64,000 nt of DNA, taken from Ciborinia camelliae (lineage: Eukaryota; Ascomycota; Leotiomycetes; Helotiales; Sclerotiniaceae). This document shows, piece by piece, positions 22,226 to 59,446 of the stretch. Within the stretch, counting starts at the first letter, position 1. Each line of letters begins with the position of its first letter. Made by a program: the position numbers and the translations under genes. The DNA lies in the NCBI GenBank assembly GCA_025890175.1, contig JANPYM010000019.1, forward strand, positions 124,001-188,000. The letters are read 5' to 3'. The notes beneath the pieces are model-generated. The model was not told the DNA's origin and did no database searches. It saw nothing but the letters and a program-made list of their open reading frames with translations.

Positions 22226-22345
22226 AATTATGAGCATCTTTCCGCAGGAACGAAGCTGCTTGTCGAATCTGAAGTTCGCCGTGTCATTGAGGAGGCTCGT
22301 ATCCGTGCTGTCAAGCTGCTTGAATCCAAGCGTAGGACCCTCTGA
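22226..22345 (+). pseudogene. Fragment of FtsH/Yme1-type AAA protease C-terminus
   Basis: The frame reads NYEHLSAGTKLLVESEVRRV then IEEARIRAVKLLESKRRTL and a stop. FtsH-family proteases end with such an E-V-R-x-[LI]-[IV]-x-E-A helix in the zinc-metalloprotease domain. Only about 40 codons of a ~700-aa protein exist; there is no AAA domain and no HExxH nearby. Confidence 0.55.
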
Positions 22346-22738
22346 GCCGGTCGATTGAATACCTCTCGCAAATGTAGCATTAATGTTGGTTGGTATAGAA
22401 GCATCCGTTCAGTTATAAGCAACCCTCAAAGTTCTACAAGACTATATAGATATATGAGTTTGAATTATCAGTCAAACAATTCATATCGAGCCAGCAATAG
22501 TCTGCTGAACGGTAGTAGTCGTTTGGACACTGCTTTTACAATTTCGACGAACTCGGCGAGCAATAGCACGTCGTCGAGTGCCAATTTATTCTTTCTGTTT
22601 TCTCTACTTGATGTAAACCAAATAGCGCAAGCAGCCAGAATATACAAGACCCAGAGACAATGACATAGAAAGACGTAGTTGTTGCCGATTTTCGCAGACT
22701 TGGAAGTCTATTTTCTCACTAAAATTCTCGCTTAACAC

Positions 22739-23340
22739 CAGTATTCTACTTAGTATACTACTGTACAACGGTAACGTGTATTAAGCGTTTCATATAATAT
22801 ATTGTACATATAAAAAATGAATTATACTACTTATATAAATATTATTTAATACAAATATTTATAAAAATATATTGAAATACTAATAAAATATTAAAATATT
22901 AAAAAAATATTAAAATTTTTATATTGCATTATCAATTTTTAAAATTATTTTTATTTGAAATTATTTCCATTTGAAATTATTTCCATTTTTAAAGCTATTC
23001 CCATTTTTCAATTAATCCCTTACAATATTAATTATAATCAATCCCTTGCAATATTAATTACAATATTAATCTATAATATTACAAGGAATTTGATTAATAA
23101 TATTACAAAAAATTAATTAAAAAATAAAAATAACTTTAAAAATTAAAAAACAGCATATACTACACTAATAAGAATTTTGTATTTACATATCTTACTAATA
23201 GTATTTAATATTATAATAATATATAATATTTTTAATAATATAAAATTCAATATTATATATCTAAATATATTTTAAAAATGTAGAACTTACTATTATACGG
23301 GCTTGTATACGGAATACGGGAAATACTAAGTAGAACACTG
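22739..23340. mobile_element. Second hAT-type MITE, A+T-rich, 602 bp
   Basis: Termini CAGTATTCTACTTAGTAT (left) and, on the other strand, CAGTGTTCTACTTAGTAT (right). Flanks CTTAACAC and CTTGACAT agree at six of eight positions with two transitions, consistent with an aged 8-bp target duplication. The interior is A+T-only and has no ORF. Confidence 0.65.
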
Positions 23341-23408
23341 CTTGACATGATGTTTAAAAATTCAAGAATTCACGATCACATCATCATACCATCCATATCA
23401 AGAATCTT

Positions 23409-23528
23409 GAAAACGATCGAAGGGATGCTCGCACCCCAAACAAAGCCAAATGAGCGAATAAAGGAATATGTACTTGTGGAGATGGCGGTATCGCTTTCAG
23501 GGAGCACAGCTTGGATCGCGGGTAGTTG
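23409..23528 (-). pseudogene. Fragment of MFS drug-efflux transporter
   Basis: Minus-strand frame with AIQAVLPESDTAISTSTYSF followed by IRSFGFVWGASIPSIVF, the conserved late-TM segment of fungal DHA-type MFS transporters (ALPE..A....Y.FIRSFG.VWG..IPS..F). About 40 of ~550 residues remain; neighbouring DNA does not continue the gene. Confidence 0.55.
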
Positions 23529-23619
23529 TGTCGTCAACGGAAAGCCGATCTCACGCCTCGGGAAAGTTAACAAAGATCACGTTTTGGAATGCGAGGAAGA
23601 TTGGTAGGCGATTAGCCTG

Positions 23620-23740
23620 TCTCGGCCTCTGAATCCCAAAATACATCTCTCCAATCCCAACAAGTGCTTCATCCCACATCTCCCCCGCCCCCTCCTTCAT
23701 CTGACCCGTATATTTCTTGGCGCTCGCCTTGTATAAGGTT
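23620..23740 (-). pseudogene. Coding-like fragment of unknown family
   Basis: Open minus-strand segment ASAKKYTGQMKEGAGEMWDE then ALVGIGEMYFGIQRPRQANR. Composition is clearly protein-like, but I do not recognise the family. It directly precedes the MFS fragment and is unrelated to it. Confidence 0.3.
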
Positions 23741-23899
23741 ATTCAGTAATGTGTCCTGGTACTCCACTTAGATGAGGATCAACAATGTCTCAAATTCACA
23801 ATGATTCGGATGAATCGGATCCCACGTGCCAACATTTTATTTTCACTTAAAGCTCAATTCTTTTCTTCATTCCGTTCGAGAACTGCGCTCATCATCAAA

Positions 23900-24041
23900 G
23901 ATGGCCGACAATGATCTTTCCGATATTCAGATCCAGCAGTTGTTGAAGGATGCTGAGGAGCGGATGAGAAACGCGACGCAAAGTCGAGTGACCGTGACAG
24001 ATGGAGAATCAACAATCGAGTCCTCCATGGATCGAGCTTGA
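23900..24041 (+). pseudogene. N-terminal-like fragment, 46 aa
   Basis: ATG-initiated peptide MADNDLSDIQIQQLLKDAEE.., an acidic helix start like those of some nucleolar processing factors, ending in a stop after SSMDRA. It may be a gene fragment carrying a start codon. Family uncertain. Confidence 0.3.
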
Positions 24042-26365
24042 AAACAATGAGGAAGATCTGCAAATGTATCAGTTTGGCTGCAAAGTTTGTATATTCTAGG
24101 ATTCTCCATATCTTTGATATAGTTAATTCTCTCCCGTTTTTGTTTTGATCATTAATTTACGATATCTGAGAAAGTTCTACAGATTCAAATGAGTCCTGTG
24201 CTATCAGGGGTGAGATTTTGAGATTCTTACCTCTGTCGCCAAACTCTTACCTATCATTGAGACGGCACCTTTGGACTTCGCCAAGTTAGCAATGGATTCC
24301 CACATAACCTTCTCAGAAATAACTTAAAGAAAGAAAAGCCCAAGAAAAATACAACTTCTTTTTACCTCTATCTATATGAGATATTATTGGCATCGTCGTC
24401 GCCATCGCCATCTACGTCAAGCAAGTCAATCAAGATTCAAAGCTTTCTTCCTCATTTAATTTCATGCGCTCTACAACTGCAATTTTTGAAGCCGCTTGAA
24501 CTTTCAAAATCTACACTATCACCATAAACTTACCTGCCTTCCAATCAACCTAGTCACTTCATGATGTCCACCATCCAAGCCTCAAACAAGGGCACTCGTT
24601 GCCATACTTTCCGGGAAGAAAAGGCAGGGAGGAATCATCGTAGCGAACAAGGAAATTGTTCTCAACAAAGGACAGTTTTCAAACAATGGCCTATTCATCC
24701 ATCCAGCAGAAAGAACTCCCTCGTCCATCAAAGAAATCTCCTCTGTGGGGATTTGGGGATTCTTATTCTTTCTGCATGGAGATAGAGATAGAGATAGAGA
24801 TAGACTCAGTCTCAGTCTCAGTTGCATTGGTATATTAGGTTGATTGATGGGATGGGGCTATGAAGATAGAGAAGAAACAGAGGAGATGGATGTTCAAGAA
24901 AAATCCCCCCAGAAATCAAAAGATAATGAATTAATGATTGACGACGCGCTTTTGCCTTTTGAACCGTCTTCTCGTGACTTGCATGTTCGCTCTTCCGAGA
25001 CAATTCGAAACGCATGCATGTCGATTGCATATCATGGATTGCAATCGATGTGCGATCGTCGATGTGGGAGAATGAGTGATTCGACTGTGTTGCAGGATTT
25101 CATTGACCAGGATTTGAAGGATTTGGAGGGAACGCCGCGCCTGTAGTACCATACTATATCATATCATATAATTATCAGGTCTCGATAGTATCGAAAATTG
25201 ATTCTTTAGTTGTGAATTCTTTCCAGAAAGTGTTTCTGCGCCGGCTTTGAGAAGAGCTACTGCGGTATCGCCTTTTTGAATTGCACATTGTATCTTTTTG
25301 ACAAGAAATCTTTTGAAAAGCTACATCTTCTTAAGCACTTAGAGCATGTGCATGGAGAGATCAACCAGAGGTGCAAAAATTACATTTTTTAACCCCAATT
25401 CTAATCCTCTACGTAATATATCTTAACTTGAACTCTCCATTTCCATTTCTTATGTATATTTATATATATATCTAGGTATCTACTTCTATGATATCTATGC
25501 GCACTTGAATTGGTACCGTTGGTAACATGAACGGATTTTCCTCGACGGCGCTCATAAACCTGATAGAAGAAGAAGATGGCGATGAGGGCGCTGATTATCA
25601 CTATATTGCCTATTTGAAGGGGCATAGTCAGCCGTTGATAGTTTCTGGGCCTCGAGTCGTTCACCTTGGACTTCTATCGATAGGTCTGGATCTACGACTC
25701 CGCCAAATGGGTTATTCTTGGGATTGCTCTGTATAAGTGCCAATGGTCGAGCGTCGGAAGATAGTCCGCTGGAACTCCTGACTCCGTAGAACTTAGCTCT
25801 TTGGTCACTACGAAATAATGATGTCTACACCGCACCTTTAATATGTATTAATAACTTAAGTAACTATCTTGATTAACAGGTCTCCATCTGTAAGGACGTA
25901 CTCTGCAAATGCTCCTCCGTGAATACTAGTGACGCCTATTATTTGTGAATCCAAGGTCAAGGGTCCGCAGGGTCCGCAAAATGACGCGGCCACTCGGTAC
26001 ATGCAAGACTTCCCCGGCCGCACACACGCCTTCGATACAGCCGGGAGTCCGGCGCGCTTCGGCGTGGGTGGATCGTTTGCGTGCTTGTTGGGAAATTTGG
26101 CACGAAAAAGAAGCTTTTTGTGGAGTGATCACAAATCACGAATCACGATAGATAGGAAAGATAAACACCCGGACATCACTGTCTCGGAGCATTGGCCTGA
26201 ACTGCCGTCTGAACATCAAGCGCTGAAAGTGACTCTGGCCTTAAACGGCGATGCTTGATCTCTCCTGCGACAAGACTTAAAAATTGCAGTAACTGAGAAT
26301 TCTGCTCCACGACGAGAAGAAGATTTCAAAATGCTCGCCGTTGAGATTTGCGCAGCCTCTGCCCG
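24042..26365. other. Mosaic region, unidentified open segments
   Basis: Short coding-like segments without starts occur on both strands: minus WESIANLAKSKGAVSMIGKS (about 24280), plus GGIIVANKEIVLNKGQFSNN (about 24650), minus KKIQCAIQKGDTAVALLKAG (about 25270, ankyrin-like). An ORF at 24844-25146 begins with ATG but shows no domain. A GATAGA microsatellite is at 24779-24804. Confidence 0.35.
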
Positions 26366-26440
26366 TGGGGCGTCGGCGTCTTTGTCTAGATCTATTTCTC
26401 CAAGAAGCAAGACGTTCTCGCCGCGGACGAGGAAGCGCTT
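26366..26440 (-). pseudogene. Fragment of Lsm1 (Sm-like, mRNA decay)
   Basis: Minus strand reads KRFLVRGENVLLLGEIDLDK then DADAP. Lsm1 proteins have RG[IV]F[LI]VRGENV[VL]LLGE[ILV]D as their Sm2 motif, so this is the C-terminal half of an Sm fold only. No Sm1 motif lies upstream. Confidence 0.6.
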
Positions 26441-28465
26441 TCTTCCTGAACGAGGTAGGTTCTAAGAAAGCCCAGTGAAAGATTCCAATATTTTCCAATG
26501 AATAAATAAATAGTTTTGTCCAGTTCAGTTCAGCCGAGCGTCTGCAGAGTCTGCAGCGTGAGAGTCTGTAACAATGACCTGGAGAACATCACTGGCCTTT
26601 TCGAGTCGATCGCTTCGATGGATAGATTATTCAGCGCAAGTTTTCTTTGTAGTTGGAATAGCACACAAGAAATCTCCTCCTGCAGGCGCTGTTCCTGTGG
26701 GTGGGAACTGATAGACTGAAGCCCAAACGCAGTTATCGGTTGGATTGCCATCGTCATAAAATCCAGAGGATCCTGTTCAACTCGAAAACCATCAGTATCC
26801 TATTTTACAATCCCTTGGTTTTTCGAGAAATGTGCTGTTCTGTTCGGATCCATCCAAAAGTGAATGAGGTTGATTGGGGAATCCTGAACAGCACGAGCGT
26901 ACTGAATAGCGGCACCCATTGGGACAGTAACAGGAGTGGGGGCTGCAATGCAGAAGGAGGTACCTAGGTAGAGAATGATCATTCGAGCGGTTCCAGAACC
27001 AAAGTTTCTTGTCCTGAGTGGATTGAGGATAATTCATTTACTACGTCTCGAATACTCCATCTCCAAGAGTTCCCTTCAGTGTCGCGTGCGACTTTTACAA
27101 TCAACAAGTCCAACATCAATAGCTCATTTTAATTACACGCCTGAAACTGGACCAATTCACGCAACCAGAATTTAAACCACAAGAACGGCGCACAAGTAAT
27201 TCTTCTCTTCCCAAAAGTCGACGTAGTGAACAAAATTGTCAGCCTCACCAAGTGCCTTGATAACCTCAACTTCCTTTTGCTTACAACAAATTCGCTCAAC
27301 CACAAGACTTACCCCTCAAAATACCCCCGTTGCGGGGATCTGTGGGGTTTTAATTTGTGTAAGTTGGTGGTGAAGGAGCTTGAAAGTTGGAATTCTTCTG
27401 ACAAAGATACTAACATCGGGAACGAGGCCAATTGATGAATACGCATTTGCTCCATGGTCAGCAAATCGAGGAAAGAGGCCCAGACTCTTCTGTTTCTTCA
27501 GTGCTTGTTGCGGCGGAATATCCACAGAGTCACTTGCAGCCTCGATTTCTTTATGAGGAAAGATGCACAATCGCAAGGACAATGTCTAGATGAAGATAAA
27601 GCAAGACATAGAAAGTCAAACCGCAAAAGAAAAGAAGAGAAGGAAAAAGTTTCTGTACACGATATGTCTCTTTTCATTCGATATAACAAATGACACGTTC
27701 ACAGTGCGATCGGCGCTTCACTAGAGAGCATTGAATATACCGATCCCAATCAATCACTCCTCGATATCTCCTCATCAATTGCACATGGAGTTTCGTTTCT
27801 GGTCAATATGGTTGTGCATATGGTCTTTAATGCGCATATACATGCCAGTTCCTTGGAGTGATATTAGCATCGAAAATTAATGGAAAATGCAGGTTAAACA
27901 TACCTCTTTACGTCAAATCCGCGTATAGTTGCATTCCCTTGCTTTCTGCGGATAAGCGGCTAAACCGCGGGTCTTGACACGGTCACACGTGACTATAGAG
28001 TTTCACTTTCTCAATAGCGGTTGGAATCATTGATTGTTTTTATGCTGAGTTCTCAAAACAAGACGAAGAATATTATGAATATTTAGAGGATGAGGACGGG
28101 ACAATATATTTGTGCAGGGTACCTCGTCGACCGGCGGCGCACACAACTTACACCCAGGTCATTTTCAAACAAGCACTGGTACCACACAGCGCAAAATCTA
28201 AGATCTCCCGTATTTATCTCAGGTCTTCATAAGGGAAAAATAAAAACAGAATGAATCCTAACAATAACCCAGTTCATCGCACAATCCCGTGCGAGTAATA
28301 AGCCAATCCACAAATCATCAACTTCCTGTAAAGGATGCTCGGAGTTCTTCCTCTGCCTCGATCGTTGAGATCTTCTATCCCAATGCGATCATGGTCTCCA
28401 TCTTCACGATATCCAAGAATCTTTTTCCCTTTCACTTCTTTGGGATATTTCTCACCCATCCACAG
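26441..28465. other. Mosaic region, unidentified open segments
   Basis: Includes minus VARDTEGNSWRWSIRDVVNE (about 27060), minus EVIKALGEADNFVHYVDFWE (about 27220) and plus GASLESIEYTDPNQSLLDIS (about 27740), all protein-like but unnamed. No intact gene or promoter-like structure seen. Confidence 0.35.
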
Positions 28466-28540
28466 ATCTTACTCGATGGAGAAGATATAAGACATTTGAA
28501 CATTGGCTGGTTGAGGAGTCAAATTGGTCTAGTTCAGCAG
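28466..28540 (+). pseudogene. Fragment of ABC transporter nucleotide-binding domain
   Basis: Frame reads ILLDGEDIRHLNIGWLRSQI then GLVQQ, the stretch between Walker A and the Q-loop of ABCB-type exporters (I.LDG.DIR.LN..WLR..IG.V.Q). It breaks off exactly at the Q-loop, where GTAATC could be an old intron donor. Walker A, signature and Walker B are absent. Confidence 0.65.
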
Positions 28541-28752
28541 GTAATCCTCCTCAGCCAATTGTCATCGAATCTGTGGTTTTATCCTGATCGTAGGCAATTG
28601 CGAATTACTTCGAGATAGCGGATGATATTTGGAGCTGTGTCGAGGTTAAAGTTGATTAGATTACATCGGGTGGTTAGGAGTCACGATTTAGAAAAGTCTT
28701 GCATCACGTAGCACGTTCAGAAGATTGCAATAAATGGTAATTTCGCCGGACC

Positions 28753-28851
28753 AGTGGTTTCGATAGTGGGTTCAACGAGGATCAAGCCTACGACAAACCT
28801 CTTTTTGCGGCCCAAGATGCCATCAGCAGTATTTATCGACCGCGACAATAA
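28753..28851 (+). pseudogene. Fragment of Prp45/SNW spliceosome protein
   Basis: Reads SGFDSGFNEDQAYDKPLFAA then QDAISSIYRPRQ and a stop. This is the conserved motif after the SNW domain of Prp45/SKIP (DSGF.ED..Y..YDKPLF.A..A..SIYRP). About 33 codons remain. Confidence 0.7.
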
Positions 28852-29374
28852 GAGACTCCGCGCATCACCACGAGCAAAAGACTCGGGGGAGTTGTTACAA
28901 AAGCGCGGGACTTGCGAATTCCCAACGGATGCTGGATTGGTTGCTGCTCGCGGAGCAATACGTCGAAGCTTCAAGGAAATGGCGCTGACACACCTCCTCT
29001 CAATCCCGCATGGTACACCAAATCCTACCGAGCTAACCCCAAACACCCATTCTTGCCAGAATATGGATGATCCAATTTCTTTTCTCCAAAGTTACATTCA
29101 GAACACCAATATACCTAAAAGATCAATTAAGATAAGCACATTAGTTCATGTACCAGTGGTGCCTGAGGATGGGTTTGATGATTTACCCATTTTCCCTCCC
29201 TTCGAATTTCAGCACGGACTTGGCGGCATTGGAACATTTGAGCTCCTCGTGAAGCGGTTGGGCGATTGTAGAGTTCGCCGAGATATGATTCGAGGACCCT
29301 TTGAGGACGTATGCGTTCGGGATCTTTCTAGTTCTAGTTCTAGCTCCAGGTCCGGCCGATTAAATAAGAAGTAG
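28852..29374 (+). CDS. Doubtful ORF overlapping the Prp45 fragment
   Basis: The ORF 28754-29374 (206 aa) reads across the Prp45 piece in another frame, so at least its first part is not the ancestral frame. The later part (MDDPISFLQSYIQNTNIPKR.. to a Ser-rich tail) could be another fragment. No domain seen. Confidence 0.2.
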
Positions 29375-29921
29375 AAATATTAGACAATTAATATTCTCTT
29401 TCAAATAGTCGGCCTCTATAGTAGTGGCTTCTAGAGGGCCAGCGGAGCATCATCTATTTATCAAACGGTTCTCCCACGTTCCATTTCAATAAATCGTTTA
29501 AGAAACTATTTTGATTAATCTGGGAGAGTGGTTTAAGCAGGGATCTCTTATCGGTCAAGAAGGAAGCTAATATGGATCCAAGTGCCGAAACTGAAGAAGA
29601 GGATGCAATCCTGCCAACTACCGAACACGATGAGGTTTTATTTTCGATAATCTTATGCCGCGCTGTCGCGATTTTGTCCCCAAGCTTCAGTGAGATTCGG
29701 AAGTCAACACATTTTTAAAGCCAAATAATCAATATGGCTGTAGCACGCCCAATAAGAGTCTTGGGCCTAGAATCAACGGATAAATATTGACCGCTTCCTA
29801 TTTTACCAGTTTGGGATCAAGTTCCAACTTTCGATAGATGCCTTTGACGTATTCTCGGATATCAGACATCCCCGCACTCTCCTTTTAAACACCTTATCGA
29901 ACATAATTATCTTGGTCGCAT

Positions 29922-29981
29922 TCATTCGAGACGGCCTGATTCGATTTTGGAAAAATCAAGTATATCATTAACGATAGTCGA
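29922..29981 (-). pseudogene. Fragment of hybrid histidine kinase (HisKA)
   Basis: Minus strand reads TIVNDILDFSKIESGRLE then a stop. This is the second helix of the HisKA dimerisation domain of fungal two-component kinases. The phospho-acceptor His box (SHE.RTP) is not nearby. Only about 18 codons, but the motif is highly characteristic. Confidence 0.55.
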
Positions 29982-30119
29982 GAGGGATCGTCAGTACCTA
30001 GTCTACTCGTAAGTTCTAACATTAAGATGCGGAAAATAAGTGGAGACGGGAAGAAAATCGTGAGAAGATCAGTTCATGTGATTCTATGAAAATGATCAGG
30101 AAATGATCAGAGAATCATG

Positions 30120-30278
30120 CAAACGCCACCCACAACCCAATATTCCGACGTAAAAATAAGTCCCCAATGGCACCAATGGCTGCGACACACACGGGCCGAC
30201 GCGCCGAGCATCGAGGAACTGGTCGGGGATGTGGCGAGACAGGAGCGGTTAAAGATATTAGCGAGTCTTCGTAGATGA
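30120..30278 (+). pseudogene. Fragment of NDUFAF2/NDUFA12-family protein
   Basis: Reads ISPQWHQWLRHTRADAPSIE then ELVGDVARQERLKILASLRR and a stop. PQWH.WL..TR..PPS.EE......RQE is the signature of the complex I assembly factor NDUFAF2 (mimitin)/B17.2 family. The usual C-terminal half is missing. It lies 260 bp upstream of an oppositely oriented helicase fragment. Confidence 0.65.
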
Positions 30279-30536
30279 AGTTCGAAAGTCAGAAGATCAG
30301 GATGTGAAAGTAGCATTTCAGCGAGAATTGGACCACCTCATTAAGGCTTATAGAGAACTGGCTAATGTTTTCTGCATCTTCCTCCGCCATTTGGAAGACC
30401 GTTTTGATTTATTATATAGATGCGCAAGAGGTGGCGACGAAGGTATCGTAAATATTAATGGCGAAAATTAACTAAGGTCATATTATTACTAGATAATATT
30501 ATCGAGATGACAAGATGGTGGGGAATTTCATCGTTG

Positions 30537-30647
30537 GATTCGAGTTTTGTCGCTAGTACAATCTTCAAAACTAATAGTATAACCAACTTCATTGTCAATC
30601 TTGTATCCCATTTCTTCCGACACACGTTGAGCAACGGACATGGCATT
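30537..30647 (-). pseudogene. Fragment of DEAH-box RNA helicase (Prp43/Prp22 type)
   Basis: Minus strand reads [20 protein letters not shown] then [17 protein letters not shown]. It covers motif Ia and the following VGY.IRFED..S..T segment of DEAH helicases, and stops just before the YMTDGML motif. No DEAH box or motif VI nearby. Confidence 0.7.
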
Positions 30648-32754
30648 TCAGGAATAGGAGGTGGTGACAAACTCATACTGGGAGGCTCTCCAGAATCCTG
30701 CGAGTTCAAACTCGCTCGCCTCTTTTTCGATCCCCCCTTTGTAGCGAACACAAGTGCTACCGTGAAAAATCCATTAATCTCGATGCGAGAAAGACGAGCC
30801 ATCTTATAGGCGAACCCCTAGTTTTGTTCTCCTTGTGAGTATTTGATTGCTCAAAATTCTCGTAGTTCTTTAGATTCTCATCCTATCCATCACCCTCTCT
30901 CCATTCCAGTTCATCCCTTGAACCAACGTTTAATCAAATTTGTAAGGGTGTAAGCGCGGGCAAGAATCGTCCATTTGGTATGAAAAGGATCGCGTCCCCA
31001 CAAGACACTCACTCACCCACTCAACAAACCCCTCCCTAAAATGCATTACACAGCACCCATCACAGAGTAACTAGTTCCAGTTCCAGTTCTAGTTTCAGTT
31101 TCAGTTCCAGTTGAAAATCCTTACTTTGCTGGCTTGGAAAGGAAGCGTAGTAGATCTTTAGTGCTCATAGAGGATTGTGGGAGTATTGATAGGGTAGTTG
31201 TTGATATCGCAGTTAAGTGTGTATAAAGAATCAATTACATGAGCTTCAAACCATGCATGCCATGCATGCAGAATACGCGACGAAGAATGTGAATGAATGA
31301 TAAAGAATTGTATTGAAATTTCTCCCAACAAAAGACATATCCATTGCAGCGTTCTGAGTCGATGGCGATTTTGCGTGCTTCGAGCCCTGCTGGGGATTCG
31401 TCAAGTGGAAAGATGTTTGTAAAGGTATCTTCCAAATTTTCAAGATCCGCATTGCCTGTCTCAGTCCAATGAATGGAGCCGGCTGCAAGCATAACAAGCA
31501 ATTTGCCGAGGCAGATCTTTGGCAATAGTTTCTAGAAGAAGATATCGATTCAAAGGTAGCACCGACTAAAACTGGATATGGATTTGTAATTGGCCAGGGG
31601 TCACGCAGTGAGTGTCACGATACCACGGGTATATCCTCCTTCAAAAAACAAACAATCCTCTCAAAAAAATGCCGTCCCCAAACAGACTCCTACCAAATGA
31701 AAAATAATAATATCGTTTTAGTATCTAAGTACTTAAACCCTCCCTTCTAAAGACCAACTGATGACTTTGCGGTTTGGAAGGCTGCTCTCTGAGTCTAAGA
31801 TGGCTTTCATCAACAAGTGAATCAATTATAGATCTTTCGAGTCCCAACAGTGAATTTGGCAATAAATGAAGGGAAGTTGTAGTTTTAATGGTATAAAGGT
31901 AGAAAGCCGTCCCACGAACTTAAACCAAGACCCGAAGAGAGAGTCGGGATTAGGAACGATTGTTGAAGATATAATTATCTTCATTCAATTCAGAATGTAT
32001 GTAACCAAATTAACTTCAACATCTACTATCTCTAGATCCTTGCGGAGAGCGCAGTATTCGACAACCTCTTGTTCTTCTCCCTTTTGTAGTTCTAGTCAAA
32101 GATATTGAATTGAAATTCCGTTACCACTTTATAGAAACTATACCTACAAGTGCTAGCAGTAATGTAAGTTTCTATTCGTTGCTTATGCGCGTCGATAAAC
32201 GCGTAGAAGTTTATAAAATGCACTCAAATCTAGAAATATATGAAGCTCGTCCGTTATTATATAATATAATATGATATTATTTCTAATATCATCTCATCTC
32301 ATCTCTCCAATATACACGGCAAGGCTTTTGTAAAGAAATCTTTTGTATACCGAGGTGAAAGTTCATTTCCAAACATTATTACTTACATTATTACTCACGC
32401 AAACTTCTACTCGGCCAATCTGCGTCGACGCTTACGATCCTCGATTTCGAAGTTATGGAAATAGAAAAGGTCGGGTAGAAGGATCTATTGCGTCTACAAA
32501 TTCGAATACACAAGGAAACTCTCCACTCTCCACAAAAAGAATCGAGATACTTTACTAGGGTCTTTCATTCCGTACATTCTTCCATATAATAAGTAATATC
32601 CCTTTCCACCCTCCTTTCTTTTCCTTTTTCCAAAAGTGCCAGCACCTCGGTTGACTACCATATCATAGGTCATAGTCTTGGCTTCCTTGGTGATGTTACC
32701 AGGAGTGAAAAGTGGCAAGCCTGTCGGAGCAGCTCCGCCCGGAGGCTGTCTGCC
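30648..32754. other. Mosaic region, unidentified open segments
   Basis: A minus-strand ORF at 31235-31525 and plus ORFs at 31866-32108 and 32343-32558 are short and without domains. A TTCCAG/TTTCAG short repeat is at 31074-31112. No intact gene. Confidence 0.35.
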
Positions 32755-33036
32755 ATGGAGCTGGCTGTCAAGAACCCAGTCGCCCGAGAAATTGTAGCTG
32801 CATGCTCTAGACTTCGAATTGAAACCTTATTTGAGGCTCCCGATGTGAAGGAAGCCAGTCCAGAGCCGGCCGGGGACGAGCCTTCGCAAAAAGCAGATTC
32901 CGGGCTGGACGAAGACATAGCGCGAAGTGAGCAGCCGAATTCAGAGAAGAACCCAAAGAAAAGGATGTGGGACGAAGCCTTTGGAGCTGGTGAAAACGCC
33001 GAATCGGGATTCCCGGAGCTAGGGCTTAACGGTTAA
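32755..33036 (+). pseudogene. ORF starting with SRP19-like fragment
   Basis: Residues 1-29 read MELAVKNPVAREIVAACSRL then RIETLFEAP, mat​ching the SRP19/Sec65 segment [EK].AV.NP.A.EI...C..L.....FE, which binds 7S RNA. The next expected YS.[DE]W..RGRVRV motif is absent. The remaining ~60 residues are acidic and polar, of unknown origin, fused in frame. Plausibly a chimeric ORF rather than a working SRP subunit. Confidence 0.5.
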
Positions 33037-33277
33037 TAGTACTCTGTTTGTTTGTATAAATGAGTGAGTGATCGTCCTGTAAACCTTTCACAATGGCTCC
33101 AAGAATTCCCCTCACGATTGATCGATTGATCGATTGATCTATACCCAGCCAGAAATTCTGTGCTTCTGTTGCGTTTTTCTCCAAGTTGATGCAATCTCTA
33201 TTTCCTAAAACATCCAAGACTAAACCAATCAATGTGGTCAAGCCTAAATTGGCCGAGGGTAATTATTCATTCACAGC

Positions 33278-33444
33278 TCAATTGAATGGTCTCAGGTAGA
33301 TCGGAACATTCAAATCTTGCACTTTCTCCCAGAAAACCTCATACATAGGATGATCCAAGTATATAGGCGCATTCGCGGAGTTATTGTTGGTATATCCATT
33401 AACCCAAATTCCAACACCACCCAAGTCCTTTACGCACCGTTCTG
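33278..33444 (-). pseudogene. Fragment of ACMSD-like amidohydrolase
   Basis: Minus strand reads PERCVKDLGGVGIWVNGYTN, then PIYLDHPMYEVFWEKVQDLN and VPIYLRPFN, stop. Resorcylate decarboxylase/ACMSD-type amidohydrolases have EL.R.V..LG..G..[VI]NG, a YLD...Y..FW..[AV].[EK]L..P.Y.HP block and a metal-binding His where this copy has Arg-Pro. About 55 codons of ~330. Confidence 0.55.
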
Positions 33445-44213: not shown

Positions 44214-44242
44214 ACTTGCACCCTCACGTGATCTACCTTTTC

Positions 44243-50867: not shown

Positions 50868-51135
50868 TACAGTATTAGACCACTTCTATTTGTTCGACAG
50901 GGGTTTTGCATCAACATCAGGACTTTATTTTTATTAACCTTAGCGACTTTATGGATCCATACGTCCATAAGGTTTAGAACCCCAGCATAAAGTAGCTATA
51001 AGGTAGATTTATATTTTTTTCGACCTTCAAGATAAGCTTGGACCTCCAAGGTCGAAGTCGATTAAAGAAAAAAAGAAAAGCAAAAAAATCTTCAACACTA
51101 GAGCTTGCGAACTTTAAATTAAATATAATATATAT
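50868..51135. other. Downstream non-coding DNA
   Basis: 3' region of the 689-aa gene. Carries TCGACCTTCAAGATAAGCTT and CCTCCAAGGTCGA complementary segments near 51020-51060; no gene. Confidence 0.35.
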
Positions 51136-51323
51136 TGGGGAATCAGGTCACATGGTTTCCGGTCATATGATCAGGGATTACGTGGTAAGTTATACCGTAT
51201 AGGGTATAGGGAAGTAACATATAAGGGCAGCTGGGCTGCCATCAAATAGATACTCCTTAGTCAACTCAATCTACCATAATTCTACCCTAGTACTTCCTTC
51301 CTACCGTATTATTGGTCATCCCA
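51136..51323 (-). mobile_element. 188-bp LTR-like element, family B copy 2
   Basis: Reverse-complement sister of 6459-6646, exactly 188 bp, with TGGGGAATCAGGTCACATGG at one end and TTGGTCATCCCA at the other. It lies only 118 bp from a family A element, as if the two favour the same A+T-rich targets. Confidence 0.65.
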
Positions 51324-51440
51324 TATTATACGTTTAATAATTAAAGTTTTTAAAATTATATTTAATATTATTAAAAAATGATTTCAAAAATTCGAAATTT
51401 TTAAAATCAAACATATTAAACTAGAAAATAGGTATAATAT

Positions 51441-51619
51441 TGTTGCGATACCAGTGAATCTACAGGGCAGATTCACCGGAGCGTGCGGCCGCGTGCGGCC
51501 GATATGCCCGCGCCCCGCGGGCATATAAGCTCGCAGGTCGATCGTAGATCGACCTGCATGCTTTTTATAATATACTATTTTAACCACAACCATTTTGATA
51601 CCACCGAGGTGATTCGACA
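51441..51619 (+). mobile_element. Four-hairpin GC-rich LTR-like element, family A copy 3
   Basis: Starts TGTTGCGATACCAGTG, ends GTGATTCGACA, 179 bp, flanked by a perfect 5-bp duplication AATAT (51436-51440 and 51620-51624). The fourth hairpin is GCAGGTCGATC, loop GTA, GATCGACCTGC: relative to copies 1 and 2 an A:T pair has become G:C on both sides of the stem and the loop is the reverse complement. Confidence 0.9.
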
Positions 51620-51624
51620 AATAT

Positions 51625-52500
51625 AAATAAAATAAATATTATAAAAAATCAAAATTTTAATAAATTAATTATTAAAAATTTTTATTAATAATTTATTCAA
51701 AAAAAACAATTTGATTTTAAAATTTAAAATTTATTTATTAAATATATTTTAATAATAAAAAAAGCCTTTTTTTTATTATTTATAAAAAAAAAATATTTAA
51801 TAATAATAATTTTTTATTTTAAATAAATATAGAAATTATAAAATTATTAAATTTATAATAAAATATTTTAATTATAATATATATTTTATATTTTTATTAT
51901 TATATATATTATATATATTATAATTATTAAATTTATTAATATTTTTATTTTTTAAAAATATATATTATAATATATTTAATAAATTAAACTTTTTAAATAA
52001 TTTTATATTAATTAAAAAATGTAACTTTTTTTTTTGCTATTATAATGTTTGATTGGAAAAATTAATAATTTATAATATCAAATAGGGATAGTATGTTTTT
52101 AGGTTATAGTTCAAAAATATAACTAAACTTATTATAAATTGATTATTGCTTAAAAATAATAATTAAAAAATTAAAATATTCAATTTAGTTTTAAATAAAT
52201 TTAAAGTCGAAATGAAAAGTTTTTATATTAATTGGAATATTAAAATTGAAAAATATAATATTCGAGATATTTACCGTTACTATTATCATATTTTAGAACC
52301 AAAATATTATAAAACTAAAAATAAAATCAATCTTAAATAGTATATGATAAACCTCGATTATTATATTGTGATATTTGGAGTATCAAAGTTAAAAAACATG
52401 ATATTCGAGGTATTTGCCGTTTATTTAAATATATATATTTAAAAACAAAAATTCAAATCTTATTTTTTGATTTTATTTTATAATAAAAATAAAAAAACTT
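51625..52500. other. A+T-only block without genes
   Basis: Stops in every frame; two similar segments GTGATATTTGGAGTATC.. and TTGGAATATTAAAATTGA.. near 52230-52420 suggest a decayed inner duplication (ATATTCGAGRTATTTRCCGT occurs twice). Confidence 0.5.
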
Positions 52501-53480
52501 AAACGAGTGACAGATGCTTTAGAGATGCAGCAAGCAGCTGAGAAAGAGAACTGGAATGAGGATGACCACAAAGAGAACAGAAGAAAAATGGAAGTGGAAG
52601 TAACCACTGGTTTAAACAACTTACGTGAATACTCGTATCTTCTCGCAGTGCGGCGATTTCCTTTCTATGATCCCTCCTCGAGAGTGTCTAGTCGCCAATT
52701 TCATCCTTCCAAGTAATTGCGTTTCATATCTTTCACATGCCAGATAACTCCAACTTCTTCAATTTTTAAGTGACAGACAGTGCCCAATTGGATTAGGCAC
52801 GGATTTGTCGGGTAGGAGAGAGGGATATCAGGCATTCTATTTAGATGCTGTGGGTCTCGTGAATGCGTAAAATGAGCGGTAAAACTCCTATGTCGAAGAA
52901 TAATATATACCACCCACTCTTCCAACACCGCCCTTATCTCCACCACCAGAAATAGATGGCGAGAACATCCATTTATCTCTCTCATTTCCATTCCCATTCC
53001 CATTCCCCTTCCCCTCCGTCCTGTCTAAACTGGAGGAGTTTTCGTTGGTAGTGCAGGAAGTTTTAATTTGGACAAATACCCCGTTTGAAGTAATAGCAAA
53101 GGCAACACGAAGGGTTTATTGGGGAAATTTACAAGAGACAAACTCTATTGGATTTAAATTCTCGATGGCGGAGACAATATTTGGCCGAATGACCAATCCA
53201 AGGGTTTCTTCCTCCTCATGAATTGGGCGGAACAGCGGTGGAAGTGAGACAGTCAAGTCAATACCGGTAATGGTAAGGTTGTGAAAACTCCTCGGCTATT
53301 ACATTTTCCCACCAGGCTGGGAGCCTAAGTCTGACTCGATAAGAGAGTGGTCCCAAGTTCTGCTTATGAAGGACAACCGGGTCACATCAAATGTTAACAT
53401 GTTGGGTGGATGAGGTGATGCCGAATTCTTCACTACTGAATTTTCCTGGTGAATTGGAAGATCTAATGCAGGAGAAAGGA
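52501..53480. other. Mosaic region, unidentified open segments
   Basis: Includes an ORF 52507-52716 (polar, helical), and a plus-strand segment LEEFSLVVQEVLIWTNTPFE then ATRRVYWGNLQETNSIGFKF (about 53035-53215), protein-like but unnamed. Confidence 0.35.
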
Positions 53481-53594
53481 TCGGAGCCCCATGCAGGAAA
53501 GTTCCTGGGCAAATGGGCTAGGCAAGCTGGGTTTGAAGAGGAAAAGGTGGTGGAGAGCTATAGTTATTTGATGCAGCCAAGTTGGAAAAACGTG
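53481..53594 (+). pseudogene. Fragment of SAM-dependent methyltransferase C-terminus
   Basis: Reads SEPHAGKFLGKWARQAGFEE then EKVVESYSYLMQPSW. Fungal UbiE-like methyltransferases have [DN]P.AG..L..WA..AGF....[VI]..S...... in this place. The SAM-binding glycine motif is absent. The identification rests on about 30 residues. Confidence 0.4.
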
Positions 53595-55751
53595 TAGGTA
53601 GGTACTGTACGTAGGGAAGAATTGAGAATTGAGAATTGAGAATTGATTGATAAATAAAGAACCAAGTTAACACAAGCAGGAGTAGAGAACGTAGAAAGAA
53701 CGAAGACACGAACTTAACTTTGTGAATATTGTAAATGAATTTACTAATCTTTTGTACGTGAACTAAAGCAAAAGTCCTAGAACTAGAACTACTAGTTGCA
53801 GACTACGTACGTCTAGCCTCCCCAACCAGTCTCATTTCGAGTCTCCAAAATTATCGTATTAATGAAAATCTAGATCTTAGTTCTAGAAGAAGATATAGAA
53901 GATCTAAACCTTATATAGACTTCGATTCGAGTCGCTATACTAAACTCCCAACATGGCGAATAATTAACACCGAAAGGGAAAAGTCCCGCAAGATTATCAG
54001 CCGGTTTAAGAATCTCCTCCAAGAATATATCCATATATACCTCATCCTTGCAAATCGCGGGCCAGATGCTCGTCTGGTTCCTCTCCAAGTTCTCCTCCTG
54101 CTTCTTTGTCCATGATGTTGAAAAAAGATCGTTCTCCATAGGCTCGTTCTAGTTTCTATCTCTGGCTCTGAGCCAAATGCCCACACCTTCTGGCGAAAGT
54201 CCCAATCCAACATCGCACAATTTATTCAAAGTCGATTCCTGATGGATGGGATGTTGATGCGACGAATGCATTTGAATGGATTCGAGACGCTCATTCAGTA
54301 CTTTCAATGGTGTATCTGCTGATCGAAAGAAGGTTTCTCAAAAACTTCAATCGACACCGCGTCGGCATTTTCATCATTAACATTGGGATCATCGAAAGCA
54401 GAGCTTTTGCCAGGAAGTACCGTAGGCCTGCTAGGCTCAAATTCATCCACGGAGCATATTTTTGAGAAATTGTCCTTGGATTCTTGATGTAGGGCCAGCG
54501 GGATGACTGTGGTGAAGGATATGGGAATAGTTGCCCCTTTCGGGCTTGGAGGGAGAGACGGGCTAAGCTTGAGAAGTCTCGAATCCTCGAGGAAAAATCG
54601 TAGGAGGGAAGAGGGGGTAGGAGGGAGTTTTATAAGTTAGATAGATAGATAGTTAGCTGGCTGACTGGCTGTTCGTCCGAGTCCAGTTGGTACTTCATCA
54701 ATGGTTGTTGTCCACTTCGTTGAGATTCCATACATATTCAGCTTCGAAGGATCCTTTGCTATTCGCTCATGCCGAATGACCTGTGGGCTATCGCTCTGCT
54801 CCTCTTATATAGGCTTTTAGCACGAGATTGTGCCTCTCCAATACAGATTCACAGCTGCAGTTAGAAAATCAGTTATGGAATGTATCTATTCCCTGAAGAG
54901 AAGTTCTGGAGTTGCCGCGTGCAGAGGTAGACGATGGACTCATGGTGTCTTCAGGTTCCCGCTTGATTGCGTCATTGAAATGCATCATGGAAGGCGAGTA
55001 TAATCTGGGTAGAGTTCGTTTTCTTTGATATGCTGTTGGCTTGGAGAAGCCGATTGCTGGGCGAGTGATGTGGAATTAGATGAGGCCGCAGACGCATGTT
55101 GCAGGGAGGATGTCGACTTTAGAGCTGGCGACTTGTTCTTGCTGTTGCGCGGGAGCTGAGATTGAGCATTTCCAATTGTTCGGCGGCCCTTGGAAAGCCG
55201 ACTATTAAACCCTACTTTATAAGAGCAAACCTATTAGATGCCTTCGATTCGAGATAGAATCATCAATAAGATATGCTCGATAACCCAAAGTCAGATCAAC
55301 ATGTAATCGGATACTGTTAGGAAGGAAGCATACTTACTTATTATAGGTAAGTGATTCGTGCTGTCAAAATCTGTTAGTAACTTAAAACACTTTGATTATC
55401 AGAAACCAAGGACTGCACAACGGAGAAGGAAACGGCGATTGGAGGGGAGATGCCGATGGAGTAGCAAAGAGGAGGATAGCCGAAGAGAGAAGCGATCCTT
55501 ACGATCTGGCCTATCAGATTCAGACGAATCTCGGGAGTTATTACGCCGACGTTCGTTCGAGGGTTTGAGATGATTGTGGAGACATTTTTTTGGAGAACGT
55601 TAGGATTAGGCTTGATGGAATATCGAGCCACATCGATGGAGAGTCTGGTTTTTTAAGTTTCGTTTGTAGAGTTGGGTTGTAAGCGCTTTTGCATTGCGGC
55701 TCCTTCGTACATACTTTTGCGATTCTGGCCCTGACCAATCCTCTAATTAGG
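53595..55751. other. Mosaic region with minus-strand gene remnants
   Basis: Open minus-strand pieces without starts: DNFSKICSVDEFEPSRPTVL (54300-54600), NAQSQLPRNSKNKSPALKST then SASPSQQHIKENELYPDYTR (about 54990-55190, Ser/Gln-rich as in transcription-factor linkers), and WPAICKDEVYMDIFLEEILK (about 54030). None is a full gene. ATTGAGAATTG repeats occur at 53618-53643. Confidence 0.35.
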
Positions 55752-55757
55752 TACACT

Positions 55758-55829
55758 TTGAAGATCTGTGCCATGATCTCAAAGAATGCTGGTGGTATTG
55801 GTCTCAACATTCACAGAATCCGTGCTACT
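55758..55829 (+). pseudogene. Fragment of ribonucleotide reductase large subunit
   Basis: Reads LKICAMISKNAGGIGLNIHR then IRAT. C..[IT]SK.AGGIG..[IV]H.IRA[TS] is the substrate-site loop of class I RNR large subunits, including the Cys that forms the redox pair. The expected GSYI.GTNG does not follow; the ORF continues with unrelated EELLKFYNLYEPCF. Confidence 0.75.
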
Positions 55830-55974
55830 GAAGAATTATTGAAGTTCTATAACTTATATGAGCCGTGTTTTATTAGAGGATCGACATATTTTCCGGGTGA
55901 GAAAGATTCGGAAGTGAAATGGAAGGGAGAGAATTGGGAGACCAGGAATTGGATATTAGATGTTGTCTCGTACC

Positions 55975-56109
55975 TTCAAGCTTCTTGCTGCTCGACAATC
56001 GGGTATCAAGATTAAAGGAATCCTGCTCTGTAATCCACATAATCCCCTCGGAAGATGTTATGCTCCAGAAGTCTTGGAAGCATATCTATCTCTATGTTCA
56101 AAGTATAAC
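55975..56109 (+). pseudogene. Fragment of ACC-synthase-like aminotransferase
   Basis: Reads FKLLAARQSGIKIKGILLCN, then PHNPLGRCYAPEVLEAYLSL and CSKYN. The NPHNPLGR motif binds PLP and cofactor phosphate-side water network in fold-type I aminotransferases; GRCY.PEVL.AY..LC.KYN is typical of fungal ACS-like enzymes. The lysine and the SDEIY motif are missing. It lies 145 bp after the RNR fragment on the same strand. Confidence 0.7.
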
Positions 56110-57309
56110 GACCAGGAAAACAAGAAACTTTCAGAGGGGAAAAAACGTTTCCATGTCTAAATTTCAAGCTCCAGAACTTAATAATCTTTAATCCTTTTAA
56201 TAAATAAATAAGCAAGTCAGATGAAACATTGTGCTTGAATATCCATGAATTCTCTCCATCGTACGTGCAATTTGGCTCGTGCCAAAACTAAATGTAATTT
56301 TGGTAGTGCGGGTGATTATAGAATCTGTGAAAGGTAATCTTTTAACCTTTTAACTTTACTCTCACATAAATAACAGCGAAGAATTGAGTGGTTGACTGGT
56401 GCGTAATTCTTAGATTTGCGACTTCAAAGAAAATTGGATGAAATGAGAGCATTCGCATATTAACTATAGTCTCCGCAGGATCGCTCAACTCCTCCAGTCT
56501 CGCGGAATTTGCGGTTGTGGAAGAAAGCGATGTTGACTTTCCTTTGGTGTGTGGAGGTAGTATTGGAGAGTATTGGAGAGTCTTGAGTATTGAGTACCTG
56601 ATTGATTTGACAAGGTTAATTCTTTGCTAGGCTCCAGATTCAGACTGTAATCCAATCCGCGCATACAAGTCCCAATCACAACATACTTCCTTACAAGATA
56701 GCGAACGTATGCGACCGGCGAAACCTGGGAATTCTTTACAGGAAACAATTCTGCAACCGAAAAACGCTACAAAAGAGTTCCAAAAGATTCAGGTGCCCAT
56801 AGATGTTACAAAGCATGGTGGAAATCGGAAATCGACGGTAATCCTCGAGGAGAAAAAGGAAGCTTTCGAACGCAAGAAGAATGAGAGAGAGTTAAGGAAA
56901 GAGGAAATAATGAGAGCTAGACAAGCTGGGAATTGGAATTTTCCCATCCGATGTCACGCCCTCCGCTTGTAATTATGCAGCGTCCATCATCCCGCGTTTA
57001 TATGCCGCGGATCCCATCGCGGGCATCCTGGGAATCTATAATGGTATTGCGAATGGCATCTTGCTCGTCTTTTTCCTCCCGCGAACCCAATCCCCAACGC
57101 ATAAACAAAAAGGTTCACCAACTAGTAAAAGACCTCTCATCCGTAACATCAGCCAATCTAGACAACTAAATGTCGCGGCAATTTTCATACATAGCCCTAA
57201 AGCTTTCCACACCGAGTTTGAGAGAATTGACTCATTCACGGGTTCCAGCAGAAGGAATTTGCTGATGGAGGAAGAAAAAACTTGAATCCCGCATATTGGT
57301 ATCTTCCCA
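56110..57309. other. Mosaic region, unidentified ORFs
   Basis: An ORF at 56709-56972 has a charged helix (EEKKEAFERKKNERELRKEE). Plus-strand PIAGILGIYNGIANGILLVF (57010-57070) is a hydrophobic open segment. Neither was identified. Confidence 0.35.
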
Positions 57310-57426
57310 TTGCCATCGGATGAGGAATATGAATCTACCAAACGTCCTGGTGCTTTAATTACCGTAAAGAGTAAGGTCAAGTTGAATGAAGGAAGGAAGA
57401 GAATAAAGTTGAGAGTGACAAGTAAG
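57310..57426 (+). pseudogene. Fragment of fungal urease
   Basis: Reads PSDEEYESTKRPGALITVKS then KVKLNEGRKRIKLRVTSK. This is the linker and start of the beta-like domain in fungal ureases (PGA...[VI]....I.LNEGR.RI.L.V.[NS].GDRPIQVGSHYHF). It stops immediately before GDRPIQVGSHYHF. No active-site residues present. Confidence 0.65.
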
Positions 57427-58849
57427 AACATTTCTTCTCAACTGACCCAGCCAAAAAGCCAGCGAGGATATTGGCAAGACAAGCTTCACAAATGGAAAGA
57501 GCGAGGGGTAGGGTTAACTGAGCCTGTTCTTGCAAATGAGCAAAATACAACGCCTTCTCACCTTTTCCCAACGATGTATCCGTGCCGCTTGTTCTGCCCG
57601 CTTCTCGTTACTTCCAACTTCTGTACTCCGGAGCTGAATGATTGAGAGTATGTATGTTGGCGGGATACAGTGTAGCAGTTACAACTTCTTCTATAGAATT
57701 TCATAGAAGACCAATCTGTTCAATTCTGTTCACTTGCTATTCATCTACATCTTCAACTTCATCTCCATCTTCATCTTCAGACTGAAAAAAAAACAGCCCC
57801 CAAATTATATATCTGCAATGTCTTCAGCTCAATATCGTCACCACCGTTAATTTTTTATTTTGTATAGCGGCAAGGGGCACAGAGATGTTGTAAAAGTTCA
57901 GGGATGTATTGCGTTGTGACAAAGGTTGATGATTGAAGGAATGCCGATGCGTCTTCTTTAGTGAAATGAAATATGTAAGGAGTCAATTTGAGGAAGAGGG
58001 GGCGGAGTAGAGGTAGAGGCTGGATGAGATAATGGCCGCAGGAAAATATCCCACGGGCAGGCCCATTTCCTCTTAATACCTCCTTCTCAAGACCTCCGAT
58101 TCGATCCTATCCTCCCCAATGAAAAGTATAATACTCGCGCACTTGTCAGGATAGGCCATGTAATCTGAAAATATAGATATGCAACAGAACTCTTTCCCGA
58201 GCCGATTTCGATACCAAAATCCCCCTAAACGCCCGCCCCATCATCTCCACAGTCGAATTACTCTGCGGGCTTGATTCTCGCGCAATGCTGAATTTTCTGT
58301 TCATTGCCAGCAAGTCAAGCCCCAAGAGGTTGACCGAGAGCCAATAAATTATTAAAGTGATTGACTTTTAATGCAAAACCTCTATCGAACAAATAGAAGT
58401 ATGATTTTAACAGTACTGGCATTGATCATGATCGCTCTTAATGTACAACCTCCCTCAAATCCCTACCGGTGCGTTATCTCCATTCCCTTTATACAGAATG
58501 TAAATCCCGGTACAAAGTCACGGAGCTACTATCGAAGATTCTATAGATCCAGAAACTAGAAGAAAAGGCCATTTCAACAATTCGATCACCAGAACAAAGA
58601 CTCGATAGCGATCCTAACAGCGGATTTATCTATCGTACTGGAGAATTGGGTATATTTCGGCACAGTACTGCTCGTTGTTGCGGATGTCTTCTCTTCTGCT
58701 TTTTCTATCGATGTAGTTTCTTCCTTTGCAGACTTCAATTCCTTCTCTGGTTCTTTGTATTGGTACCCAACTAATCCCTCATTTCTACCGAGCTCCACAT
58801 ATCATGCCCATGCTTTAAAGCATTCATCTTAACAGCTGCGGCCGTCCTG
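57427..58849. other. Mosaic region, unidentified ORFs
   Basis: ORFs at 58371-58559 and minus 58586-58798 are short and without domains. CTTCATCTTCATC-type repeats at 57745-57775. Confidence 0.35.
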
Positions 58850-58930
58850 AAGTACAACAAGGAGAAGAACGTCGATATCACTAAGGATCTTAAGACTATG
58901 GGTAAACTTAAGCGTGAGGCTGAAAAGGCT
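58850..58930 (+). pseudogene. Fragment of Hsp70 (BiP/Ssa type)
   Basis: Reads KYNKEKNVDITKDLKTMGKL then KREAEKA. This is the Hsp70 ATPase-domain segment F...[YF]...[ND]VD[IV]..D.[KR]..GKLKRE.EKAKR.LS. The following codons (TLGLPPNDRNPLPPN) do not continue it. Only 27 of ~650 residues. Confidence 0.75.
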
Positions 58931-59353
58931 ACTCTGGGTCTCCCACCAAACGATCGAAACCCTCTTCCTCCAAACGCGGTCTCGGTGTTATATTATTTAT
59001 GATTTATGATTCAATATTCAATCATCTCAAGTCTACTTAAATCTAAAAATAAATATCTACATGTACCTAGTCCAGTACTCCGTACATACCACCTGGTTCT
59101 GCATACACCCATCCATCTTGATTCTTTAAGCCCGTTCCAGCCAACTCAATCAATCAATCAAAAATCTCCAATTCCCATCTAGGATTCATAATTTCTTCAA
59201 GAGAGAGTTGTTTATTTTCTGCAAGCTGATTTTCTTGTTCCTCACCAGAGTTTCCTTTCGCATTTGGGATATTCGTGTGCTCTTCCCGAGAACACAGCCG
59301 CAATTGTAATTGTCTGGAACTCGAACAAGGAAAAGGTCGACACATAATATGCG

Positions 59354-59446
59354 GAGCTTCTCCCTTCCGCTGTATATTCCCACGACGAATACGGGACTCC
59401 TGCTGTATCGCCCCGTCTCACTTAATATTCTGGCTACGGGGGGTTC
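59354..59446 (-). pseudogene. Fragment of mitochondrial ribosomal protein mL44 (Mrpl3)
   Basis: Minus strand reads EPPVARILSETGRYSRSPVF then VVGIYSGREKL. Fungal mL44 proteins (RNase III-like with dsRBD) have [RK]LLSETGR.SR.PVFVVG[VI]YSG.[DE]KLGEG. The GEG that should follow is lost. TTTG microsatellite at 59475-59496 overlaps the larger ORF. Confidence 0.6.

Follow-up and report, generated by a model that had tools for sequence, protein, structure and literature searches.

Most knowledge of catastrophic genome rearrangements comes from cancers, congenital disorders and laboratory crosses, and the insertions formed at double-strand breaks in yeast comprise one to a few inserts per break and not an array. 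Here we describe a long mosaic of short, close-packed copies of nuclear DNA in a fungus that we take to be Ciborinia camelliae (Sclerotiniaceae), the agent of camellia flower blight. The window that was analysed, 64,000 bp in length, corresponds to positions 124001-188000 of contig C11 (C11:124001-188000) in a genome of 27 contigs and 46.2 Mb, and source loci were sought by searching the sequence of the region against the fungus's own genome. The analysis is based on one assembly, and most of the extent of the mosaic was derived from short samples (110-240 bases each). For one strain of C. camelliae, Nanopore and Illumina sequencing has been described (PMC10512376); the assembly used here may be that of another strain.

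A chain attributed to microhomology-mediated break-induced replication (MM-BIR) in human telomere-crisis fusions contains 16 inserts, and insert lengths in that work run from 13 to 18,065 bp, the medians being 155-234 bp (PMC13065848). As in the present case, short pieces from many chromosomes stand in a row with junction microhomologies of a few bases; in contrast, the window examined here holds at least hundreds of pieces, of 31-168 bp, and the array is inherited and old. In Arabidopsis, the chromosomes shattered after genome elimination (PMC4461816) likewise represent a broken genome that was reassembled into an extra heritable unit, their junctions show microhomology, are blunt or carry insertions, and a separate nucleus was likewise proposed as the site of breakage. 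However, they involve a single chromosome of one parent and copy-number blocks shown in 25-kb bins, whereas the pieces found here are shorter than 200 bp. The B chromosomes of rye (PMC5704207) are also mosaics from several standard chromosomes, with fragments mostly of genes. They consist of larger blocks, include organellar DNA and have two main donor chromosomes, whereas in C. camelliae all large contigs but one contributed in proportion to their size and no organellar piece was recognised among the pieces. The supernumerary genome of Fusarium poae (PMC4994206) is similar in being fungal extra DNA with copies of core genes that escape repeat-induced point mutation (RIP), but its duplicated genes lie above the length threshold of RIP and the scraps described here are far below it. 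Finally, the insertions of genomic or mitochondrial DNA at yeast double-strand breaks (PMC10802722, PMC11724301) also consist of DNA from elsewhere in the cell, joined into a break. No array of such grain and length was found in the titles and abstract openings returned by searches of open-licence PMC papers, and one may exist in print. The joining chemistry is familiar, unlike the scale and the grain.

A preliminary description of the window, made from the sequence alone, had read positions 22226..59446 as a mosaic of fragments of unrelated conserved genes, put together from scattered genomic pieces. An origin from scattered pieces is borne out by a tiling whose sources are distributed throughout the fungus's own genome, and the mosaic is larger than had been stated, with 14 and 30 pieces tiling 1,001 and 2,450 bp in the two best-resolved stretches (Table 1). 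The 14 pieces at 40000-41000 are 46-111 bp long, are 94-100% identical to their sources and overlap by 0-10 bases. Another 32 pieces cover 2,075 of 3,000 bp at 19001-22000 (best 40 of 90 candidates scored) and 17 pieces cover 897 of 1,501 bp at 17500-19000 (best 40 of 71). The gaps in these two stretches and in a third at 57001-60000, where one piece (59680-59779) belongs to a dispersed repeat family, arise because the best 40 candidates were scored, with repeats using up places. Beyond the window, at C11:191001-193500, 18 pieces cover 1,817 of 2,500 bp (21 of 21 candidates scored). Instead of twenty-odd scraps with gaps of up to a few kilobases, as first described, the DNA thus consists of close-packed pieces of about 31-168 bp wherever it was tiled.

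The interval first proposed was also too narrow. The mosaic extends from about position 17,500 (C11:141.5 kb), where the leftmost piece follows long open frames (15096-17013) and a dispersed repeat (17282-17426), past the right end of the window to at least C11:500 kb, with repeats and AT-rich DNA inside. Within the window, mosaic DNA was found in the samples at 18301, 24201, 29601, 31801, 33401, 35301, 53301, 54501 and 61201; those at 46201, 46601 and 48601 had no match in the genome search, those at 14601 and 47801 are dispersed repeats (the latter at 47801-48040), and the one at 17301 covers the repeat to the left of the mosaic. Outside the window, the C11 samples at 189.5, 194.5, 200, 205, 210, 215 and 220 kb and, further to the right, at 230, 240, 250, 260, 280, 330 and 500 kb are mosaic, so that 12 of the 13 samples searched between 200 and 500 kb belong to it, the remaining one (470 kb) being a repeat. 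Matches of C11:304-307 kb to a dispersed repeat family have no bearing either way, and for the samples at 80 and 110 kb no match turned up among those candidates that were scored. Counted by series, mosaic DNA was detected in 5 of 9 samples of the first series (best 40 of 127 candidates scored), in 12 of 15 of the C11 series (40 of 51) and in 6 of 8 of the later window series (23 of 23); with this scoring, the lack of a match carries little weight for single samples of the first and the C11 series. Left out were one of ten samples in the first series (satellite), four of 15 in the later series (AT-rich or simple repeat) and five of 20 in the C11 series (one minisatellite, three AT-rich, one reading N), three of the last five (two AT-rich, one N) lying between 200 and 500 kb. 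Extrapolation from the samples (about 70% mosaic, mean piece of 83 bp) yields some 3,000 pieces between C11:141.5 kb and at least 500 kb. Single samples from contigs C13, C15 and C16, searched in the later series, were not mosaic. A telomere repeat was not found in the 600 bases examined at either end of C11, and both ends are AT-rich.

For the statistics on pieces we used 101 window pieces whose source DNA was retrieved; a few other listed pieces were not counted, matches to the left of 17,000 had been dropped, and three of the then 104 pieces were removed, one as a repeat (51116) and two as matches of low complexity (61775). Their lengths have a mean of 86 bp, a standard deviation of 31 and a range of 31-168 bp, and 99 of them do not exceed 147 bp. 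This distribution is peaked and not memoryless, as none of 20,000 simulated sets with the same mean was as even, and a longest piece of 168 bp has a probability of 1.5e-4 under memoryless lengths. Compared with their sources, 30 pieces are identical and 71 differ, 76 reach at least 97% identity, 12 fall below 95% and nine are gapped; the mismatches amount to 190 substitutions in 8,705 bases (2.2%).

The origin of the pieces was followed with 145 placed pieces (repeat-family matches omitted, two low-complexity or locally duplicated pieces kept). They derive from 21 of the 27 contigs in numbers proportional to contig size (chi2 p=0.48), and the sources are still in place for every piece counted. 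Because the sources are intact in a fungus that we assume to be haploid, the pieces are taken as extra copies. Chromothripsis, in which breakage is limited to one or a few chromosomes and the broken DNA is lost or displaced, does not fit, the whole genome having been sampled with its sources in place. Neighbouring pieces are unrelated: four of 71 abutting pairs come from the same contig (5.0 expected), the closest with sources 235 kb apart, and 30 of the 71 share the strand. Among pieces that are not neighbours, 20813-20940 and 28229-28284 have sources at C3:1432487-1432614 and 1432323-1432379, about 110 bp apart and in opposite orientation, and the sources of 27192-27276 and 52839-52910 lie about 1.2 kb apart on C22. 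An organellar origin was considered for a piece from C17 and rejected, the source being an open frame with 52% GC.

The preliminary description had spoken of fragments of genes. However, the sources are both coding and non-coding, with 21 of 40 source points inside a stop-to-stop open reading frame (ORF) of at least 150 aa, compared with 31 of 80 controls taken at a distance of about 1.1 kb. A Pfam family was found in eight of 16 scanned source frames, comprising squalene cyclase (lanosterol synthase), isocitrate lyase, GH76, CENP-T, a fungal zinc-cluster factor, a protein kinase, a cupin/JmjC protein and an ABC1-type kinase. Ten gene names had been put forward as clear cases; the two that were examined one by one, lanosterol synthase and isocitrate lyase, hold at the source, where the lanosterol synthase is 100% identical to NHQ30_004060 of C. 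camelliae. The remark that the breaks are unlike exon ends was correct, since they are unrelated to exons. The somewhat higher share of source points in long ORFs and a strand lean of the coding pieces (10 vs 22) would agree with scraps of reverse-transcribed RNA, joined through template switching of a reverse transcriptase. Many sources lie outside long ORFs, however, and 17 pieces have no covering ORF even of 90 aa, coding pieces occur in both orientations, and no pair among the 71 neighbours unites two parts of a single gene, so that an RNA origin appears highly unlikely.

Mapping of microhomology at the junctions, proposed along with the first description, revealed a clear excess. At 71 junctions the exact microhomology has a mean of 2.0 bases, compared with 0.72 when these sources are joined at random (p=2e-12), and it reaches three or more bases at 25 of them, versus 6% expected; at 42 junctions every base around the junction is explained. 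The exact-match test replaced a BLAST-based overlap null, which also indicated an excess (p=7e-8), as BLAST extends through chance matches. Direct abutment also bears on gene-capturing transposons of the Pack-MULE or Helitron type carrying captured gene scraps, which had been named as one possible origin and are suggested by the dispersed repeats and a MITE-like element (MITE, miniature inverted-repeat transposable element) of the region. Against them, pieces follow each other directly, no family of long repeats extends across the region, no repeat of at least 60 bp recurs around the pieces (shorter terminal repeats were not searched separately), and 201 source ends show no shared motif and no clear base preference. 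We therefore ascribe only a minimal probability to transposon capture.

The main rival is serial template switching (MM-BIR, chromoanasynthesis), in which a polymerase of low processivity extends a broken end and hops very many times from one intact chromosome to another, guided by microhomologies of a few bases. It accounts for intact sources, which would be copied and not moved, the microhomology of about 2 bp is like that of the human MM-BIR chains (median 2 bp, all chromosomes; PMC13065848), and a change in processivity could explain a step in piece length at 20.39 kb. However, the lengths are peaked and capped (31-168 bp, with a longest piece of 177 bp outside the window) and lack the broad spread into the kilobase range seen in the inserts of 13 to 18,065 bp in that paper. 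In addition, none of the 71 neighbouring pairs has templates closer than 235 kb, and thousands of switches without any long tract would be required. On account of the length limit, the peaked lengths and the lack of nearby templates, we favour free fragments and regard template switching as unlikely, if still a serious competitor.

The differences between pieces and sources give a hint at the history of the array. Among 32 pieces whose reading frame is clear, 2,761 bases contain 37 differences (14 synonymous, 23 not); in 17 pieces from 3-kb loci that no ORF of 90 aa covers, 48 differences were counted in 1,809 bases (2.65%). These numbers fit a freely decaying copy beside a constrained source (p=0.74). 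A donor with another working genome, such as a different species or a diverged strain, was rejected, as there is no synonymous bias (p=4e-8). Since near-neutral decay of the copies fits and divergence between two working genomes does not, the DNA can be assigned to the fungus's own lineage; judged from the sequence, it behaves as if copies of its own DNA had decayed almost neutrally after capture. RIP was likewise rejected as the cause of the differences, with 17 C-to-T changes at CpA versus 18 in reverse, and 61 of C-to-T type overall versus 52 in reverse. The word "recent" in the preliminary description holds in a relative sense: with a fungal rate of 1.05e-9 per site and year (PMC4994206), 2.65% over two lineages corresponds to an age of perhaps 13 million years, and a tenfold faster rate would reduce it to 1.3 million.

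This divergence also speaks against an artefact of assembly or library preparation, in which chimeric molecules were assembled as a contig. Only a single assembly was used, and a tandem pair of a 1.7-kb mosaic stretch with 100% identity at C11:189876-193342 (L041:1876-5342) is either a recent duplication untouched by RIP or an assembly fault. Library chimeras, though, are expected to be near-identical to their sources and without one order over hundreds of kilobases, whereas 71 of the 101 pieces differ from their sources in a way that resembles years of near-neutral change; an artefact is thus very improbable. Slow accretion, in which short fragments were inserted singly or a few at a time at breaks of a tolerant region, in many separate events over a long period, would be in line with the different piece lengths of sub-blocks, with the uneven divergence across all 101 pieces (p=2e-7) and with four pieces of 86-92% identity. 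Setting these four aside, a single divergence of 1.9% fits the remaining 97 pieces (p=0.06), and the four may come from multi-copy or lost sources. Moreover, older pieces should then be split by younger ones, and no source place recurs among the 30 pieces of 26001-28500. We consider slow accretion improbable, to a lesser degree than an artefact.

In the explanation that we prefer, and to which we give an even chance, debris of the genome at nucleosome scale was concatenated by microhomology-assisted end joining and kept in C11. End-joined debris, or a part of a chromosome made of core scraps, had been among the initial suggestions and remains the best reading. Accordingly, the pieces abut directly with an excess of microhomology and have size-limited, non-memoryless lengths, less markedly so in two sub-blocks. 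A copy of the fungus's own nuclear genome would have been broken into fragments of about 30-180 bp, a sample of these, random in origin and orientation, would have been joined end to end, and the resulting long concatemer would have become part of C11. The fragments would have been free DNA before joining, and the array would have been built in one or a few episodes, with AT-rich blocks and some repeats arriving later. As the sources are intact and the fungus is assumed to be haploid, we infer that the broken genome belonged to another nucleus, for instance one that was dying within the same multinucleate hypha, or one from a fusion partner that shared the lineage.

Several observations weigh against this explanation, at least in its simplest form. 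At 19 of the 71 junctions there is no microhomology, pieces of up to 177 bp occur in a sample from beyond the window, and at C11:191.0-193.5 kb 683 of 2,500 bp, including an uninterrupted 393 bp, could not be traced to a source with all 21 candidates scored. The uneven divergence of the full set of pieces and the strand lean of the coding pieces, which nevertheless occur in both orientations, belong here as well. Piece lengths are not constant from one part of the array to another (Kruskal p=2e-8) and change in a step at 20.39 kb (p=4e-8), with means of 50 bp at 17.5-20.39 kb, 82 at 20.4-22 kb, 86 at 26-28.5 kb, 75 at 40-41 kb and 104 at C11:191-193.5 kb. This comparison omits edge, repeat and low-complexity pieces, and in the leftmost block part of the candidates were scored, with a bias, if any, toward long pieces. 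The departure from memoryless lengths is weak in that block (P=0.02) and at C11:191 kb (P=0.03). The variation in length implies that more than one batch was joined or that conditions changed; a single uniform pool joined at once is too simple. Contig C6 (1.7 Mb) is the source of none of the 145 placed pieces, where 5.4 were expected (p=0.0045, uncorrected for 27 contigs); C6 may consist mostly of repeats or be itself unusual. At about 1.0-1.15 Mb it carries many copies of the repeat family matched by C11:304-307 kb. Finally, a dying nucleus would be a natural source in a fungus, where cytoplasm is shared, and this step is conjectural.

A more specific version is a salvage of genomes in the syncytium. 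The degraded DNA of a dying nucleus would have been ligated wholesale into a surviving nucleus as hundreds of kilobases of sub-nucleosomal shards, which would have escaped RIP and lasted millions of years as a reservoir of random coding fragments. RIP, the main defence of fungi against duplication, acts on duplications of about 800 bp upward (PMC4994206), and the array would escape it because each shard is far shorter. We put this version forward tentatively and hold it to be somewhat doubtful.

Table 1. Features of the analysed window (positions in bp)
Feature	Position	Strand	Remarks
Left flank outside the mosaic	15096..17013	+	long open frames 15096-15848 and 15877-17013
Dispersed repeat at the left edge of the mosaic	17282..17426		copies 71-81% identical
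Mosaic within the window	17500..64000		tiled stretches and samples; repeats, AT-rich blocks and a non-mosaic island inside
Left sub-block of short pieces	17500..20390		29 complete pieces, mean 50 bp, 36-82 bp
Sub-block of longer pieces	20391..22000		18 complete pieces, mean 82 bp
Best-resolved stretch	26001..28500		30 pieces from 30 loci, 2,450 of 2,500 bp; 31 of 31 candidates scored
Palindromic MITE-like repeat	36681..37186		80-90% identical to four other copies
Lanosterol synthase piece	37343..37466	-	100% identical to C22:1947957-1948080; gene on minus strand of locus
Dispersed repeat of about 190 bp	38128..38330		many genome copies; second copy in the window at 51438-51628, inverted
Isocitrate lyase piece	39985..40087	-	100% identical to C22 source
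Fully tiled kilobase	40000..41000		14 pieces from 14 loci, 1,001 of 1,001 bp; 15 of 15 candidates scored
AT-rich block (about 42.5-46 and 51-53 kb) around an island	42001..53000		three samples unmatched, one dispersed repeat
Tiled stretch	57001..60000		24 pieces, 2,423 of 3,000 bp (best 40 of 82 candidates)

Inside the interval 22226-59446, non-mosaic DNA comprises the three unmatched samples, the dispersed repeats at 36681-37186, about 38128-38330 and 47801-48040, and AT-rich blocks at about 22.8-23.3, 42.5-46 and 51-53 kb, these blocks lying outside the tiled stretches. The block at 42001-53000 probably represents later insertions, and the MITE-like repeat may have landed inside a piece. The non-mosaic island between the AT-rich blocks contains two adjoining open frames, 48499-49866 (455 aa) and 49863-50867 (334 aa), neither of which matched a Pfam family above the cut-off; for the former, no homologue was detected at an E of 0.001 among 7,979 candidates. 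In the left flank, the open frame 15877-17013 shows a weak match, below the cut-off, to the APH phosphotransferases of Pfam. Further to the left, positions 6001-10000 are extremely AT-rich (GC 5-20%) with tandem repeats of the type AATAAATAA, and 10547-11761 is a 404-aa open frame made up largely of tandem repeats of 63 bp and 33/69 bp, with a Pfam match to SP2_M at 1e-9 that is possibly compositional. To the left of the window, a satellite-like repeat of the type CCCGTCTG/CCCATCTA was observed at C11:120501-120740 (L040:6501-6740).

Taken together, our findings suggest that a living chromosome can take up and retain the debris of a broken genome. If this is true, the segment of several hundred kilobases in C. 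camelliae, natural and inherited, with the whole genome sampled at a grain of 50-100 bp, would represent a fossil record of such an event: a single molecule with thousands of junctions similar in age would suffice to read out fragment size, end processing, the use of microhomology and the protection by nucleosomes. The segment bears on the possible origin of supernumerary DNA from core DNA, on how duplicated DNA can evade RIP, and on whether dying nuclei feed DNA to living ones in a syncytium.

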